Source of the DNA: a virus | Length of the DNA stretch: 32,163 bases | Strand: one strand, 5' to 3' | IMG/VR virus record: IMGVR_UViG_3300025467_000049 | Coordinates: 1-32,163 of that record | Made by a program: the position numbers and the translations under genes | Shown: positions 1,621 through 32,076 of the stretch, piece by piece | Layout of the letters: the number at the start of each line of letters is the position of its first letter | Position numbering within the stretch: position 1 is the stretch's first letter | Notes under the pieces: model-generated | Databases searched by the model: none | What the model saw: the letters and a program-made list of their open reading frames with translations, nothing else | Told to the model about the DNA's origin: nothing

Positions 1621-2259
1621 ATGGCAACAGAACTAAAAAGTGAATTGATAGAGGCGTGCGGTTGGCACACAATCGGATCCGAAGCGGATTGGCGAAAGTG
1701 CCAACAGTGTGTGAAGCGGTACAAGAAATACAACATCATCTACGCTGACCCGCCTTGGTCTTATAGGGATAAAGCCCTCGCTGGAAATAGAGGTGCTGGG
1801 TGCAAATATCCCGTTCAAAGCAAAGCGTGGTTAGAGGCATTGGATGTGAAAGGTATTGCCGACACCGACTGTATTTTATTTCTCTGGGTAACAATGCCGA
1901 AACTCGACGAGGCGTTTGACTTGATAAAGGCGTGGGGTTTCAACTACAAAACAGTGGCGTTCACTTGGGTAAAGCGCAATAAGAAAGCAGATAGTTGGTT
2001 TTGGGGAATGGGTAGGTGGACACGCGCCAATGCCGAGTTATGTTTACTTGCCACAAAAGGAAGCCCTACTCGCGTATACGCAGGTGTTCACTCTGTTGTT
2101 GATACGCCCATTGAAGGACATTCAAAAAAAACTGATTGTGTTCGGGGTCGAATTATTGACCTTGTTGGTAATGCGCCGCGCATTGAACTCTTTGCACGAC
2201 AAAAAACCGAGGGTTGGGACGTATGGGGGAACGAAATAGAAAGTGATATTGTTCTTTGA
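1621..2259 (+). CDS. MT-A70-type adenine N6 methyltransferase
   Basis: 212 residues. DPPW at residues 43-46 (IIYADPPWSYRD) is the catalytic motif of the MT-A70 family, which transfers a methyl group from S-adenosylmethionine to adenine N6. Other family landmarks follow in order: LFLWVTMP, GMGRWTRANAELCLLATKG, a VDTPIEGHSKK segment and a C-terminal RIELFARQKTEGWDVWGNE. Phage members usually methylate DNA and can protect it from host restriction. The N-terminal 30 residues contain C13-x2-H16 and C27-x2-C30, which looks like a small zinc site added ahead of the catalytic domain. The start is leaderless in style (cctaaatATG). A larger rightward ORF at 2030-2239 inside it is a shadow. Confidence 0.9.
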   Translation: MATELKSELIEACGWHTIGSEADWRKCQQCVKRYKKYNIIYADPPWSYRDKALAGNRGAGCKYPVQSKAWLEALDVKGIADTDCILFLWVTMPKLDEAFDLIKAWGFNYKTVAFTWVKRNKKADSWFWGMGRWTRANAELCLLATKGSPTRVYAGVHSVVDTPIEGHSKKTDCVRGRIIDLVGNAPRIELFARQKTEGWDVWGNEIESDIVL

Positions 2260-2458: not shown

Positions 2459-3025
2459 ATGAATCAAGGCGGAAAATTAGCTGGTGGAAACCCAGCCAGA
2501 GGTAGAGCAGATAATGATTATTATGCTACACACCCAGATAGTACAAAAGCATTGCTGGCTGTTGAGGAGATTATTTACCCTGCTTTAGAACCATCATGTG
2601 GTGAGGGACATATATCAAAACTGTTAGATGGGTATAGAACAAAGTCTTTTGATTTGATTGATAGAGGATATGGAAATGTGGGAACAGATTTTCTTACCAC
2701 TGATTTTGTTGGGGAATATGCAACAGTAATTACAAATCCTCCATTTAATTTGTTTCAAGAGTTTGTGGAAAAATCTTTGAGAATAGCTACAAAAAAAGTT
2801 ATAATGTTTGGTAAGTTACAAGCTCTTGAAGGTCAAAAGCGAGCAACATTTCTTCAAAAAACACCATTACGAACAGTATATGTTTTTAAAAAAAGACAGC
2901 AACCTATGAGAAACGGAAAATCAAATGATGAGGTTACAGGAAAGAAAATGAGTTCTACAATGGCGTTCGCTTGGTTCGTATGGGAAATTGGCTATCAAGG
3001 AAAACCAACTATTGAATGGATTTAA
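2459..3025 (+). CDS. phage DNA adenine methyltransferase (NPPF type)
   Basis: 188 residues. The SAM-binding motif I appears as EPSCGEGHI (44-52), motif II as DLIDRGYG (65-72), and the catalytic motif IV as NPPF (93-96). The start region NDYYATHPDSTKALL and the ending FAWFVWEIGYQGKPTIEWI are typical of a compact phage class I methyltransferase often annotated as DNA N6-adenine methyltransferase. It would methylate amino groups in DNA; target sequence cannot be read. It sits seven bases after a zinc miniprotein and is the second adenine-type methylase in the cluster. The start has no ribosome-binding motif. Confidence 0.85.
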   Translation: MNQGGKLAGGNPARGRADNDYYATHPDSTKALLAVEEIIYPALEPSCGEGHISKLLDGYRTKSFDLIDRGYGNVGTDFLTTDFVGEYATVITNPPFNLFQEFVEKSLRIATKKVIMFGKLQALEGQKRATFLQKTPLRTVYVFKKRQQPMRNGKSNDEVTGKKMSSTMAFAWFVWEIGYQGKPTIEWI

Positions 3026-25288: not shown

Positions 25289-27136
25289 TTATTTGATAGG
25301 AACTTGGCTAATAATCTGTTTCTCTTGCGCCTGAACTGGACTAGGGTTCGGTGCTGACGGAGTAACGCTATTCGGTGGAGCGCCACTTGTCGAAACAGGA
25401 GCATTAGGAGTTGGTGCCGTTGGCATAGGTGGTTGCATACCTAGATATTCCTGCATGTACTGTTGAGGCAAGAGTTTATACATCATTAACTTCATAGCAC
25501 TTTCAGTAGGGTTCTTATCTTTTGTCTTCTCAAAATAAGTCAAAGGGTCTAGCAATCCAGCTTCGTACTCGGAAAGAGCAGAATTAAATACGGACAACTC
25601 ATCCTGTGGAACGAGTGAGCCATTCTGAACATTTACTGTAAACTTTCTACCTTGTGGGATTTCACTTGCTTGCAACTGTGCCATTTGCTGAGTGTTTTCT
25701 GGTCCAATAACAGAAATCATGTGAGGAGTATCCCAGTACACATAAATCATCTGTAAGAAGTGATTAAAGATTCTGCCAGCCGCCAATTCAAGCATTTCGG
25801 TAACACCACCACCTGTGCGAGAAGTATCTTGCTGACCGACAATAATCTTTCCTCGTACAGTCTCCTCTTGCGAAGTAGATTCTGCTGTTGAGCCACTGAC
25901 ACCAAAACGTGCCATAAAGCGTGTCCTATCGTCTTGTATGCGTTCATAGACGACTTCTGGTATATCATGGTTCTCTGGGAACATAAGAGCCTTAGAAGGT
26001 TCGCCGGGAGTAACGATTGTACGACCTTGACGACGAGCCTCTGCAACCTGTGCCGCCTGTTCTTTGTTGAACATCAATCCATTTACAACGACACCGCCAT
26101 TGATGTTATCGACATTCCTATCGTACTGTTTCAGTCCTTTGTTGATGTTGTCCTGAGTGACAAGTCCCTGAGATACGAGACCTGTCTCATCGCATGGCTG
26201 AGTTCCTAAATCAAAAACTGTAAGGAATACAAATGGAATCTTAGGGCGTGGGAAGTGGTTATGTCCCGGTACTTCCTGCATCGTAGGCTGACCCATAGCG
26301 TCTACCGTCCGCTGTTGCTTTGGATAATTAAAGTTAGGGTTCTTTGACTTATGTAAAATGATATCGCCTAGCTTGTAGAATACATACTCGTCAGTCCAGC
26401 ATTGCTTATAGCCCATGAGTGAGCCGAGCTTGCCTTGTGCTTCCTTTTCAATCTTATCTTTATGTTCAGGGAAACGAGTAATAAGATTACGAGCAGTATC
26501 GTAGAGTTTAAGATTCAAGAACTCACCAACATATTCTCCGTCTTCAATGTAACCGTTAGGGTCAAGCTCTAGGTCTTTAGGATTGATAGCTTTAACAATG
26601 ATTTCATTATCCTCGCCGTTGTAACCAATCTGCCATACACCTAAGAAGCGTAGACTCCAATGACGAACACCTTTCTTCAACTTAGTTTTTAGATGATTGT
26701 ACTGTGCAAGATATTCAAGAGCCATGTGAATCTTGTCAGCAACCTCTTTCATTTCAGGAGAATTGTCACAGCCAACAATAGGTTCAGGGTTCTGTTGAGT
26801 GGCTTGTGGAATCATTGTCTCAACCGCTTCAAAGATTATGTTATCTGTGAGAGGTCGTTTGCCATTCTCGTATTCACTATCAGGAAATTGCTTGCCAATC
26901 CAATAACGCTGATTGATGTCTCCAGCTTCATGTATTTGTTTCTTGGTAGTTGATCCGTCATAAAGTAATCTCCATGATTTTTCAAGTTCAATCAAATCCC
27001 TATCATCCATGTCCAAAGTTAATTCACCGAGACTCTCAACTAATCCTTCCTGTTTTTCTCCGTCAGCATTTTTACCCTTCGCTTTATTATAGTTTGCGAA
27101 TAGTGAGTAAAATCCACTTGTGAGTATGCCTGCCAT
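25289..27136 (-). CDS. portal protein
   Basis: 615 residues. The stretch SWRLLYDGSTTKKQIHEAGD, RYWIGKQFPDSEY, RPLTDNIIFEAVETMIPQAT, and later FLGVWQIGYN, IKAINPKDLELDPNGY and PFVFLTVFDLGTQPCDETGL fits a podovirus-type portal, the dodecameric ring through which DNA enters and leaves the head. The long C-terminal helical region and Pro/Thr/Asn-rich end (QPPMPTAPTPNAPVSTS) are usual for such proteins. It is the first gene after the 240-base control region and begins the virion run. Confidence 0.85.
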   Translation of the reverse strand: MAGILTSGFYSLFANYNKAKGKNADGEKQEGLVESLGELTLDMDDRDLIELEKSWRLLYDGSTTKKQIHEAGDINQRYWIGKQFPDSEYENGKRPLTDNIIFEAVETMIPQATQQNPEPIVGCDNSPEMKEVADKIHMALEYLAQYNHLKTKLKKGVRHWSLRFLGVWQIGYNGEDNEIIVKAINPKDLELDPNGYIEDGEYVGEFLNLKLYDTARNLITRFPEHKDKIEKEAQGKLGSLMGYKQCWTDEYVFYKLGDIILHKSKNPNFNYPKQQRTVDAMGQPTMQEVPGHNHFPRPKIPFVFLTVFDLGTQPCDETGLVSQGLVTQDNINKGLKQYDRNVDNINGGVVVNGLMFNKEQAAQVAEARRQGRTIVTPGEPSKALMFPENHDIPEVVYERIQDDRTRFMARFGVSGSTAESTSQEETVRGKIIVGQQDTSRTGGGVTEMLELAAGRIFNHFLQMIYVYWDTPHMISVIGPENTQQMAQLQASEIPQGRKFTVNVQNGSLVPQDELSVFNSALSEYEAGLLDPLTYFEKTKDKNPTESAMKLMMYKLLPQQYMQEYLGMQPPMPTAPTPNAPVSTSGAPPNSVTPSAPNPSPVQAQEKQIISQVPIK

Positions 27137-27160
27137 TTTTATATTTTGTTTATTTAAATA

Positions 27161-27195
27161 CTAAAAGAGCGCCCAGAAAAAATCTGATGCGCTCC
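27161..27195 (-). terminator. early terminator just upstream of the portal gene
   Basis: On the leftward strand GAGCGC pairs with GCGCTC and CAGA with TCTG across a small bulge and a T-rich loop, then TTTTAG follows. This is an intrinsic terminator located about 25 to 55 bases after the predicted start of the consensus promoter and 25 bases before the portal ATG. It would end most transcripts before the virion genes unless overridden. Confidence 0.7.
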
Positions 27196-27224
27196 CATTG
27201 CGTTGGTTAAGCGTTTACGATGTA

Positions 27225-27253
27225 ATTATATTCCTACTATCCTAGAGTGTCAA
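27225..27253 (-). promoter_or_regulatory. consensus promoter for the virion operon
   Basis: The leftward strand reads TTGACA, a 17-base spacer, then TATAAT, a perfect match to the sigma-70 consensus at both hexamers with ideal spacing. A start near 27218 is predicted. No ORF lies between it and the portal gene. It lies between two intrinsic terminators in a 239-base gap. Confidence 0.85.
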
Positions 27254-27281
27254 ACAAGTCAAGGGTGTGTATAACTATAAC

Positions 27282-27305
27282 GCAAAAATTCCCAGAGAGG
27301 GGAAT
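27282..27305 (-). terminator. intrinsic terminator of the groEL-terminase unit
   Basis: ATTCCC and GGGAAT form a six-pair stem around CTCTCT, followed by TTTTG on the leftward strand. An upstream GGGAAT at 27336-27331 could pair with the same ATTCCC and act as an antiterminator, so the stem may be an attenuator rather than a fixed stop. It precedes the consensus promoter by about 30 bases. Confidence 0.65.
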
Positions 27306-27364
27306 GATTGCGATTATTAGCTTTGATCATATTCCCATGAATTTTGTAAAGAACATCTACCTAA

Positions 27365-27373
27365 ATTATACCA
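27365..27373 (-). promoter_or_regulatory. candidate extended -10 promoter (TGGTATAAT)
   Basis: The leftward strand carries TG, one base, then TATAAT just after the stop of the 68-residue gene. The -35 region is poor, as is usual for extended -10 promoters. Transcription from near 27358 to the terminator at 27282 would give an RNA of about 75 bases. It includes a possible nine-codon leader (MFFTKFMGI) with AGG shortly upstream. Confidence 0.45.
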
Positions 27374-27375
27374 CA

Positions 27376-27582
27376 CTAAAACTTATTTGACTTAGGTGAA
27401 TATGTGTATAAGTGCCTGTCCACAGATAGTATATCCCCCTCTTTGGAGAAGTTAATCGTTGAAGAACCACGCTTGATGTCCAATGCACCAGAGCTTATTA
27501 AAAAGGTTATTTTATCGTAATACTGCATAAAGAGCTTAAATGCTTCTGCATCTTGATTTGAAAGTGTGATAATCGCTGTCAT
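27376..27582 (-). CDS. 68-residue protein of unknown function after terL
   Basis: The protein TAIITLSNQDAEAFKLFMQY, then YDKITFLISSGALDIKRGSS followed by TINFSKEGDIL, is a compact alpha/beta chain of a type I have seen downstream of terminase genes in related phages (LSxxDAxxFKLFxxxYDxIxxLxxSGxxDIKxGxxxxxFxKEG). Its function is unknown to me. It ends in the control region and starts three bases after the terminase stop. Confidence 0.65.
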   Translation of the reverse strand: MTAIITLSNQDAEAFKLFMQYYDKITFLISSGALDIKRGSSTINFSKEGDILSVDRHLYTYSPKSNKF

Positions 27583-27585
27583 AAA

Positions 27586-29211
27586 TTATGTATAGCGCCA
27601 GTCCGATTCCTTTGGAGAAACTTCTGGCATTATTAATTGTATCCCATCTGTCGTATTGTTGTGATATCGATAAGGTGCTTCGGGTATAACTGATTTCCTT
27701 TCACTACCCCCAACGAACTGACTCTCATTCTCTGCGAATCTATCATAGGCTACTCGATAGTATACCATAGCAATAGCCCAGTCATTGCGGTCTGAACGCT
27801 CCCAGACATAGACAAGATTGCCCATTCTGTCCTCATCAACAATACGATACATATGAGACCAATGAAGCCACATATTCCACCATTTCTCTAAGTTACCCAT
27901 AAGGAGAATACGCTTGTCGTTCATCTCGTCTACTGTCTGCTGAATAATACGATTACGGTCTACAAGCACTCTGCCGTATTCTTCGCCGTCTCCCCACTTG
28001 ATAAGATTCATGGACTTTTTATCTTGCACGAATGAACATAAAAATACTTTACCTTTGTTATCATCTGCGAACTTACGGACTCCAATGATATCTCCGCCTT
28101 GGTCAATAACCATTATCCAGTCGTTATGCTTATCACATTCACGCTGTAGCTCCTCATAAGTATCACATTCGCCCATATCTATGAGCCCGTTCATATCACC
28201 ATAACACCAACGAATCTTTATACCTGTATCAACTCCAAATAATACACGACCCTTACGTTGTTTCTCCTCTGTCAAAATACCTTTAATTGTTTCAAGCGTA
28301 ACCTTTGACTTGTTATCAGCATAAGGCAAAGCGAGTACGAAGTTATGGAAGTATTGAGCTTCCTTCTCTTTAAAGTCTTTAATGATTTTACTAGCAGGAA
28401 TCCATGCACAGATAAGCTGTGGAATATGATAGCCACTAAACTCCGCTTCTGGGTTCTTCTTTCTCCAATGTCCCTCACGTCTATCTTGGTCAGTAATCTC
28501 ATTCTGACAAAATTTGCATTGATAACATTGTCTTTGCTGATCAACTGAGTATGGCCACTCCATGAACTGCCATTCTTTACAAGCTGAACATAAAATAAAC
28601 CATTCTTTCATATCGGATTTAGCCCAATATTGGTCTATACCGTTTCCAACCACACTAGGATGAGAGAAGTACCAACGCCAACCACCTGCTTCTGCTTGCT
28701 GGCGTGTTTCGTATTGGATAATAACCTCTGGATTAGAAGCGTCTATTTCGTCATGCACGTTTAACTGTGAGGAGAACATGGTAGCAGACTTGGTTGTGAA
28801 TGTACCACGCCAACGAATCATACTATCGCCTATCTTCTTCTGTTCAATTGTGTCATGGTCTTTAGTCCAATTTTGGAATACTTTGTTTTGAGCAATAATA
28901 CGGTTAATCTTATCGCCCACCATATCAAAGACATCGGACATAGTAGGCAATGTGTAGATGATGTCCTTCTTCAAGAAGCGAGCTACCCATAGAATCTTGA
29001 TAGTAAACATAACCGTAGCGCCTATCTGGGGAGCTTTCAGGATAGCTTGATATGGACTCATGTCCTCTAGAATATCTTTCAGAAACGGTCTATCACGAAA
29101 TGATAAAGACAAACCACGCTCACTTTTGATATCCTGTCCCTTAATAAAAAGATACGGATTTACCGCTTCAAGCTCTTCTGGTTTTATATCAAGAGGTTTT
29201 TGCTTTAGCAT
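27586..29211 (-). CDS. terL: terminase large subunit
   Basis: 541 residues. The ATPase site is KAPQIGAT (59-66), a Walker A variant of the type found in terminases, with Walker B at HDEID (153-157). A zinc ribbon with C208, C211, C232 and C235 lies between the two domains, as in GpA-like and related large terminases. The nuclease domain starts near VLFGVDTG (D328), with MVIDQGGDIIG and the late NDWAIAMVYYRVAYDR holding further acidic residues. It powers DNA packaging through the portal and cuts the concatemer. The 48-residue zinc gene overlaps its start by 23 bases. Confidence 0.9.
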   Translation of the reverse strand: MLKQKPLDIKPEELEAVNPYLFIKGQDIKSERGLSLSFRDRPFLKDILEDMSPYQAILKAPQIGATVMFTIKILWVARFLKKDIIYTLPTMSDVFDMVGDKINRIIAQNKVFQNWTKDHDTIEQKKIGDSMIRWRGTFTTKSATMFSSQLNVHDEIDASNPEVIIQYETRQQAEAGGWRWYFSHPSVVGNGIDQYWAKSDMKEWFILCSACKEWQFMEWPYSVDQQRQCYQCKFCQNEITDQDRREGHWRKKNPEAEFSGYHIPQLICAWIPASKIIKDFKEKEAQYFHNFVLALPYADNKSKVTLETIKGILTEEKQRKGRVLFGVDTGIKIRWCYGDMNGLIDMGECDTYEELQRECDKHNDWIMVIDQGGDIIGVRKFADDNKGKVFLCSFVQDKKSMNLIKWGDGEEYGRVLVDRNRIIQQTVDEMNDKRILLMGNLEKWWNMWLHWSHMYRIVDEDRMGNLVYVWERSDRNDWAIAMVYYRVAYDRFAENESQFVGGSERKSVIPEAPYRYHNNTTDGIQLIMPEVSPKESDWRYT

Positions 29212-30349: not shown

Positions 30350-30557
30350 GAAGGTTAGGGTATTTATCTCTCTTACGTCTTGCGGAGTAACGACTATTCT
30401 CCTGACCATGCCAGCATTTACGGATTTGACCGACTGATACGATATAGGTTCTTCCGCAATGGCATTTTATTTCTTTGCGCACAAGAGCATGACTTCCTGA
30501 ATAAAATCTATCTGTTCTCGTACCGCTTCTCCTAATATTTGTTTTATAATTACTCAT
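30297..30557 (-). CDS. 86-residue zinc-ribbon-like protein after groEL
   Basis: SNYKTNIRRSGTRTDRFYSG leads into EIKCHCGRTYIVSVGQIRKC, where CHCG then C-x-H (KCWHG) mirrors the CQCG ribbon of the following gene. The C-terminal part is very basic (RYSARRKRDKYPNLHAKTK). The ATG lies within the last codons of groEL (overlap of 8 bases, ATGAGTAA), so it is co-translated with it. The C-terminal third overlaps the next gene in another frame, so its real end may be earlier. Confidence 0.55.
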   Translation of the reverse strand: MSNYKTNIRRSGTRTDRFYSGSHALVRKEIKCHCGRTYIVSVGQIRKCWHGQENSRYSARRKRDKYPNLHAKTKVSMRKTSNSPTV

Positions 30558-32076
30558 CTGATTTTGGTGGGACTTTTACAACTGCAATAGTTCCCTTGTT
30601 TATCAAACGACCTTTAGCGAATGAGACTGCATTTTCAATCGAACAACGTGTAGCTTTTACTGGATCAATTATACCAGATTTTATCATATCAACATAGGTT
30701 TCATTTTCTGCATCAAAGCCTTTTCCTTTTGGCATATTGACTAGAATGTCTGCGTAATCAAGTCCAATGTTATCAATGATTCTCTTGAACGGAGATAGGA
30801 TAGCTTTTTTCATAATTCTTTCACCGATATCCGTACTAGATAATTTCTGTGATACACGATAGAAAGCCATGCCACCACCTTCAACAATCCCTTCCTCTAA
30901 AGCGGATTTAACGGCATTTACAGCGTCTTCAACCTTGTCATAGAGTCCTTGTGTCTCTCCTTCAGTCTTTGAACCGACTGAAATGACGGCCACATTACCC
31001 TGCAAACGAGCTATACGCTTCTCTACCATGTCATAATCGTTATCATTGGTGATTGAGCCTAATTGCTGTTTTAGTTGCTTTACGGTTGATTTTACGTTTC
31101 CTGCGCCATTAAGAATGATAGTCTTACCACTTGTAGCAATAATCTTTTCAGCTTTACCGAGATTTTCAAGTGTAATTTCTTCTAGTTTATAACCTGCATC
31201 TTTTGAAATGAAAGTAGCACCAGTAACTAAAGCTACGTCTTCAAGGACTTCATTTTTCTGTGAAGCACACTTAATTACGAGGGTATTAAACATACCGACT
31301 TGCTTGTTATAGGCAAAAGTATTAAGTACGGCTGGGTCTATTTCAGTACAGAAAATAACAAGCTCTTTGATAGTAGCTGAGGCTTTTTCTAGGAATGGCA
31401 TAAGTTCAGCGATTGTAGATAGTTTCTCGCCGATCACCAGTGTACGAACCCCTTTGAATTCTGCCTTATTACCCTTATTGCACATGAAAGGGTGAACATA
31501 GCCTTTTTCTACTTCATAGCCTTCAACGAGTTTAACTTCGGTACTAGGTAGTTTAGATTCTTCAACAGTAATCTTTCCGTCTTTGCCGACTGCTTCAAAT
31601 GTATCGGTAATAATGTTAGCAATCTCTTCTGATTCAGATGAGACTAAGGCGACTTGATATATTTCTTTTGATGTTCGGATAGGCTTAGCTATCTTTCGCA
31701 ATTCGTCAATGATTTTAACCTTAGCCTTTTCGATAGATTTGTTTATCTTCTTAGGGTTTTCGGAATACTTAAATGCTTCTGTTGGGATAGCATGGCATAG
31801 GCAAATTGTTGTAGTAGTAGCATCTCCTGCTTCTTCATTAGTTTTAGCCGCCGCCTCGCACATAAGGTTAAGTGTTTGACGTTCAGTATCGTCATTAACT
31901 TCAAGTGCTTTAGCAACACTAACTCCATCAGTAGTAACACGAGGGACTGAAAAAGCTCGGTCTAGTGTTACTGCTCCACCGCCCGGGCCGAGAGTACAGC
32001 AGACGTACTCCTCGACCAAGTCCATAACTCGTATGATTTTCTGGCGATCTTCTATTCCGTTAGAGAGTATTTTCAT
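30550..32076 (-). CDS. groEL: phage GroEL-type chaperonin, divergent
   Basis: 508 residues, about 40 shorter than bacterial GroEL. The equatorial ATPase motifs are kept: TLGPGGGAVTLD (28-39), VTTDGVSVA with D50 (E. coli D52), GDATTTT with D85 (E. coli D87) and VEDAV with D384 (E. coli D398). The apical domain includes GYVHPF and LMPFLE, the region that binds substrate and GroES. Differences stand out: the usual GPKGRN is GPGGGA, the normally conserved APGFGDRRK stretch is replaced by CASQKNEV (270-277), and the C-terminal Gly/Met repeat is absent, the protein ending KVPPKSDE. A groES is not in the window. It likely folds phage virion proteins. It starts the leftward unit. Confidence 0.9.
   Translation of the reverse strand: MKILSNGIEDRQKIIRVMDLVEEYVCCTLGPGGGAVTLDRAFSVPRVTTDGVSVAKALEVNDDTERQTLNLMCEAAAKTNEEAGDATTTTICLCHAIPTEAFKYSENPKKINKSIEKAKVKIIDELRKIAKPIRTSKEIYQVALVSSESEEIANIITDTFEAVGKDGKITVEESKLPSTEVKLVEGYEVEKGYVHPFMCNKGNKAEFKGVRTLVIGEKLSTIAELMPFLEKASATIKELVIFCTEIDPAVLNTFAYNKQVGMFNTLVIKCASQKNEVLEDVALVTGATFISKDAGYKLEEITLENLGKAEKIIATSGKTIILNGAGNVKSTVKQLKQQLGSITNDNDYDMVEKRIARLQGNVAVISVGSKTEGETQGLYDKVEDAVNAVKSALEEGIVEGGGMAFYRVSQKLSSTDIGERIMKKAILSPFKRIIDNIGLDYADILVNMPKGKGFDAENETYVDMIKSGIIDPVKATRCSIENAVSFAKGRLINKGTIAVVKVPPKSDE

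Follow-up and report, generated by a model that had tools for sequence, protein, structure and literature searches.

A putative late-operon attenuator with a covarying antiterminator hairpin before the portal gene of uncultured tailed phages

What might a long non-coding gap between the terminase unit and the portal gene do for the virion genes behind it? The stretch of DNA analysed here (the window) comprises 32,163 bases of an IMG/VR virus record, and the genes on its minus strand run in the order groEL, small genes, terminase small subunit, terminase large subunit (terL), a 68-residue gene, a gap of 239 bases, the portal gene and the virion genes. Reading 5′ to 3′ on that strand, an extended -10-like sequence and a hairpin come first in the gap; a perfect sigma-70 promoter follows, then another hairpin, with a short U tract, and finally the start of the portal gene. 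From comparison with related phages, we consider it quite likely that the virion (late) operon is controlled from this gap, which would act as a transcription attenuator.

30550-32076, minus strand: GroEL-like chaperonin (phrog_5725, E 5e-104)
27586-29211, minus strand: terL (phrog_675, E 5.3e-75)
27376-27582, minus strand: 68-residue gene directly after terL, predicted helix-helix-beta-hairpin
27365-27373, minus strand: extended -10-like TGGTATAAT, kept in the closest relatives only
27281-27312, minus strand: upstream hairpin CGCAA-UC-AUUCCC/GGGAAU-UU-UUGCG, a putative terminator
27248-27253, minus strand: -35 element TTGACA, the same promoter class preceding the portal in many distant relatives
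27225-27230, minus strand: -10 element TATAAT, with a 17-nt spacer to TTGACA
27166-27195, minus strand: intrinsic terminator hairpin, GGAGCGC AUCAGA ... UCUG GGCGCUC, GC-rich
27163-27166, minus strand: terminator U tract, short in the window (UUUUAGUAUUU) and longer in most relatives
25289-27136, minus strand: portal protein gene, first after the putative switch (phrog_156, E 1.9e-14; ATG at 27136)

Promoter and terminator signals in the gap

A preliminary description of this DNA had placed a perfect TTGACA-17-TATAAT promoter at 27225-27253, and this was borne out. On the minus strand it is the sole 12/12 match within the 12 kb scanned, base composition predicting about 0.05 such matches per 32 kb and 0.0002 in the gap, and it recurs in distant relatives; across 49 leaders the promoter score was 9.95 as compared to 7.83 ± 0.12 for shuffles. 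Transcription is predicted to start near 27218. The terminator claimed for 27161-27195 also held up, in the form of a GC-rich hairpin and short U tract (27195-27163) that immediately precede the portal ATG. The window leader folds better than its dinucleotide shuffles (z -3.0), and portal terminators outscore other terminators on the same contigs by a competing-hairpin score (p 8e-8), two high-scoring “controls” (L060, L095) being the element itself with a gene inserted before the portal.

Relatives were gathered by portal searches, which yielded close ones at 81-97% identity, distant ones at 33-42% and then hundreds, the larger scans taking the best 80 of hundreds of relatives per scan. A strong promoter and a final hairpin with U tract precede the portal in the relatives at 81% identity and also in distant phages, for example L009, L020, L021, L024 and L033, and the promoter-terminator arrangement recurs down to 33-42% portal identity (33-97% overall). 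It is not universal, as many relatives have the promoter and no terminator, or have terL running straight into the portal. Because many of the loci in the out-of-sample set described below lack a terminator and have a consensus promoter right next to the portal, the putative attenuator would be an added layer that some lineages lack. Six sister lineages of this kind, with the consensus promoter directly before the portal and without a terminator, are L220, L230, L249, L255, L260 and L268.

The preliminary description had counted two promoters and two terminators in the gap. Only the consensus promoter and the portal-side terminator are secure, because the upstream pair is limited to the closest relatives (L002, L003, L004 and L007; missing in the 81%-identical L005, L006 and L010) and because terminator-like sites in a generic scan of the window were no commoner than in shuffles (7 vs 7.7). 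The extended -10 sequence does lie at 27373-27365 but is absent beyond those closest relatives. The hairpin proposed as a terminator at 27282-27305 likewise exists, but it (27305-27288) is nested in a longer one (27312-27281), in which the T run is itself base-paired. A GGGAAU sequence upstream of this hairpin (27325-27336) could pair with its 5′ arm AUUCCC (27300-27305); this possible second competing fold is not kept beyond the closest relatives.

An alternative hairpin that overlaps the terminator

Between the promoter and the terminator sits a further hairpin, not part of the preliminary description, which we term the antiterminator:

27190-27213, minus strand: antiterminator hairpin, 24 nt, CGCU-UAA-CCA-acgcaa-UGG-G-AGCG, its P1 and P2 stems covarying across relatives
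27213-27210 with 27193-27190, minus strand: P1, CGCU paired with AGCG
27206-27204 with 27197-27195, minus strand: P2, CCA paired with UGG, loop ACGCAA
Between P1 and P2, minus strand: internal loop, UAA opposite G

By inspection, the leaders share a GCYYUAA-like box and, next to it, a small hairpin that lies immediately 5′ of the terminator. Across relatives, P1 has 3-5 bp and P2 2-5 bp, the internal loop sets two or three bases (GA, AA, UAA, CAA or AAC) against one, mostly A or C, and the apical loop is mostly A-rich, variable and 3-9 nt long. Where groEL takes the upstream place of the 68-residue gene, the element is still found with the portal. The 3′ strand of P1 falls within the first nine bases of the terminator 5′ arm, and antiterminator and terminator are thus mutually exclusive. 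In the window their folding energies are -5.2 and -17.2 kcal/mol, respectively, and across relatives -2 to -10 and -10 to -26 kcal/mol, the terminator always being the stabler of the two wherever energies were calculated for both. Given so large a difference, the leader should terminate by default and something must favour the antiterminator.

The pairing was tested against controls with the same automatic parser on all leaders, without hand parsing and in 200 rounds each. The mean own pairing score of 51 non-redundant leaders (13.45) was reached in 0 of 200 rounds by dinucleotide-shuffled leaders (5.41 ± 0.77, maximum 7.31) and in 0 of 200 by leaders joined to the terminator of another phage (6.43 ± 0.82, maximum 8.49). 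In the hand-parsed set, 99% of P1 cells and 97% of P2 cells were paired, and permutation brought these values down to 71 and 60% (0 of 2000). Compensatory pair types were CG, GC, UA, AU and UG in P1 and CG, UA, AU and GC in P2; because these positions had been chosen for pairing, the shuffle and swap score is the unbiased test. MAFFT alignments of such short elements were not in structural register, and pair statistics were therefore computed by script.

With the rules fixed beforehand, 84 newly fetched portal loci served as an out-of-sample set. A terminator was detected by rule in 32, of which 26 were new and non-redundant, and their mean score was 9.38 as compared to 6.18 ± 1.10 for shuffled and 6.14 ± 1.16 for swapped leaders (0 of 200 each). 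New covarying cases included AGUCC/GGACU, GUC/GAC and GGCUU/AGGCU, and about half of these out-of-sample terminators had no recognisable element. A whole-contig scan by a narrower rule, which missed known elements, located the element in two contigs, solely in front of the portal, and two further matches (G010, G013) look like chance.

The search for conserved pairing in related phages that the preliminary description had called for thus found promoter and stems kept in many distant relatives; loss of both among relatives, the outcome that it had named as speaking against its reading, was looked for and is not what we saw. Promoter, terminator, alternative hairpin, their mutual exclusion and the covariation across lineages are present in the sequences themselves.

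Rfam covariance models gave 0 matches at gathering score in the window and 15 related loci. Ribosome-coupled attenuation via a leader peptide was considered and dropped because the ATG in the window leader is not conserved (ACG in L005 and L006, none in L002). L002 has a portal 97% identical to that of the window and strongly diverged leader and terminator sequences, with both alternative folds kept. Three loci (L036 2140-2335, L083 3925-4120 and L093 1-122) share a second, larger RNA domain (GUUCGGAAUC ... CUGGCCAUUACUUA) between promoter and antiterminator, that of L083 being without an Rfam match at gathering score.

Proposed mechanism and its alternatives

In the reading that we favour, transcription would begin near 27218, from the consensus promoter, and RNA polymerase would by default stop at the terminator about 55 nt further on. 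If the nascent leader instead forms the small hairpin with its asymmetric internal loop, the outer stem would take the base of the terminator 5′ arm, and P1 would open the terminator base beside the U tract, leaving a shortened stem parted from that tract; polymerase could then read on into the portal gene and the virion genes behind it. The antiterminator would be stabilised by a factor that is synthesised, or already available, at the appropriate stage. From the greater stability of the terminator we infer that such a factor is needed in trans, and we likewise infer that termination and read-through both occur and that the factor is a protein. The switch would probably be a timer that turns on the late genes.

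The RAT hairpin of the BglG-LicT-SacY systems has two asymmetric internal loops, whereas the phage element has one (RA or UAA opposite one nucleotide). The phage element would also control virion genes rather than sugar operons, and no CAT_RBD protein (PF03123) was found in 14 related phage records, the control being positive in 4 genomes. It resembles RAT in being a small imperfect hairpin that overlaps the 5′ part of a terminator and that, once stabilised, excludes it (PMC3369936). LicT and ANTAR regulators act through a stabilised antiterminator that leaves the terminator with a shorter stem, detached from the U tract, and for the ANTAR proteins AmiR and NasR the likeness to the protein-stabilised hairpin proposed here lies in this step (PMC3369936). 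The phage element is a single hairpin with a loop of 3-9 nt, unlike the two hexaloop hairpins of ANTAR targets; a search for PF03861 (ANTAR) gave no match, its controls giving none either. By the comparisons made, it belongs to neither of these two families. With a terminator hairpin and U tract before the coding region, and an alternative, covarying hairpin that shares bases of the terminator arm, an attenuator of the RAT/ANTAR type is the best reading and in our judgement a probable one, within the limits of a short U tract in the window and a P1 of only 3-5 bp.

Processive antitermination of the lambda Q, N or put type, in which the hairpin is a loading site and polymerase ignores this and later terminators, would fit the order of promoter, leader, terminator and virion genes, and a GCUYUAA-like box with a small hairpin behind it recalls the arrangement of boxA and boxB. 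We nevertheless regard it as unlikely. A loading site does not need P1 to overlap and covary with a terminator arm, and in the window scan terminators were not in excess inside the virion operon. No Q-like (PF03589) or NusG-like protein (PF02357, which covers LoaP/RfaH-type NusG paralogues) was found in 9 related contigs (0/9 each), the controls being positive in E. coli and in 10 genomes, respectively. Lambda Q binds DNA inside the late promoter (PMC6606751), and a TAGGA repeat in the window promoter spacer is absent in the 81%-identical L005 and L006 (spacers compared by eye). The analogy to the lambda late promoter (pR′-tR′) drawn in the preliminary description therefore stands for the logic of strong promoter, early terminator and virion genes, which is conserved in distant relatives, but not for a mechanism of Q on a DNA site; in these phages a covarying RNA antiterminator overlaps the terminator. 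HK022 put RNA and the lambda nut sites are similar in being leader RNA elements between promoter and terminator of a phage operon. Put RNA acts on polymerase itself (PMC9378689), whereas the stem of the phage element competes with the terminator.

The same two folds could also be read by a riboswitch ligand or a host protein, as might be expected when no known antiterminator was found to be phage-encoded. This is improbable for so short an element (about 24 nt), whose apical loop varies, which has no Rfam match and which co-occurs with a phage gene. Very improbable is a small-RNA gene whose ~55-nt product acts in trans while the portal operon is read from elsewhere: promoter and terminator do delimit a short transcript in many relatives, but its position is always immediately before the portal, its sequence turns over while its structure is kept, and in sister lineages the same promoter class would fire directly into the portal without a terminator. 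An unregulated leaky terminator or 5′ UTR stem, serving only to tune the amount of virion mRNA, to insulate it or to stabilise it, would suit the short U tract in the window and the viability of lineages without any terminator but is hardly credible, since a passive stem leaves the second, competing, covarying hairpin unexplained.

Candidate factor, relatives and host

The best candidate for a factor acting in the proposed attenuator is, tentatively and from co-occurrence only, the small alpha/beta protein encoded directly after terL. Among 118 dereplicated phages, scored by a rule-based element detector that gives some false positives and misses longer element variants, the small gene was present in 36 of 42 element-positive and in 21 of 76 element-negative ones (Fisher 8e-10), and several of the latter 21 carry, by eye, longer variants that the rule missed (L002, L024 and L059, for example). 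When only phages with a terminator were compared, p was 1e-5; on independent branches, 7.0 pairs went the same way and 0.7 the opposite way (median p 0.06). The link between gene and element is thus suggestive, and weaker after tree correction. Two classes of small gene follow terL, the 68-residue class and a second one in a groEL-adjacent group. Both are predicted to form a helix and antiparallel beta strands, profile comparison of the two gave no significant similarity, and fold and sequence searches with the 68-residue protein returned no significant match and no known RNA-binding fold.

A Pfam scan of 20 proteins, from the window and from a 7.8-kb early region that is present in a related 38-kb contig and missing from the window, named no antiterminator. 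The small zinc protein suggested as the factor in the preliminary description does not fit the window, though in some relatives the position after terL is taken by a Com-like zinc ribbon (L106, L109 and L101; PF10122, E 2e-6 to 1e-4). L106 and L109 also have a larger leader RNA before the terminator.

Taken as a whole, a phage-specific late antitermination system in a large uncultured tailed-phage family whose closest named relative infects candidate phylum TM7 is a possibility that we advance with caution. Its two parts would be a ~24-nt antiterminator RNA overlapping the late terminator and an RNA-binding protein, small and of alpha/beta type, from the gene directly following the terminase. 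A literature search limited to papers open without subscription found no description of the element or of late control in these phages. If the proposal is true, late timing in dozens of lineages would involve a new RNA element that is mechanistically unlike lambda Q. With a short DNA segment and the 68-residue protein, the idea could be tested in vitro with no need to grow phage or host, and the phage family might be recognisable in metagenomes by the RNA structure.

Among named phages, the only relatives were the TM7 phage DolZOral124_53_65, at 28% portal identity, and a Manatee Spring record, at 23%. Neither has an equivalent gap, terminase and portal being 50 bases apart in the former and a 96-residue gene following the terminase almost directly in the latter. 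A DNA-level search of a phage collection gave no match, and one genome match was to an 8-kb contig binned as Ignavibacteriae. Because the closest named relatives include a TM7 phage, a Patescibacteria host is plausible. The TM7 phage also has a chaperonin gene, and in the related 38-kb contig (L115, 13652-15414) a small GroES-like gene lies just before the chaperonin gene. DNA methyltransferase-like genes occur in the window (1621-2259 and 2459-3025, plus strand) and in L115 (11048-11413), with matches to MT-A70 (3e-24), an EcoRI methylase-like family (4.5e-6) and Dam (2e-12). Most window genes start without a Shine-Dalgarno sequence and have A-rich stretches upstream, often with CUAAC or GCUAACAA before the ATG.
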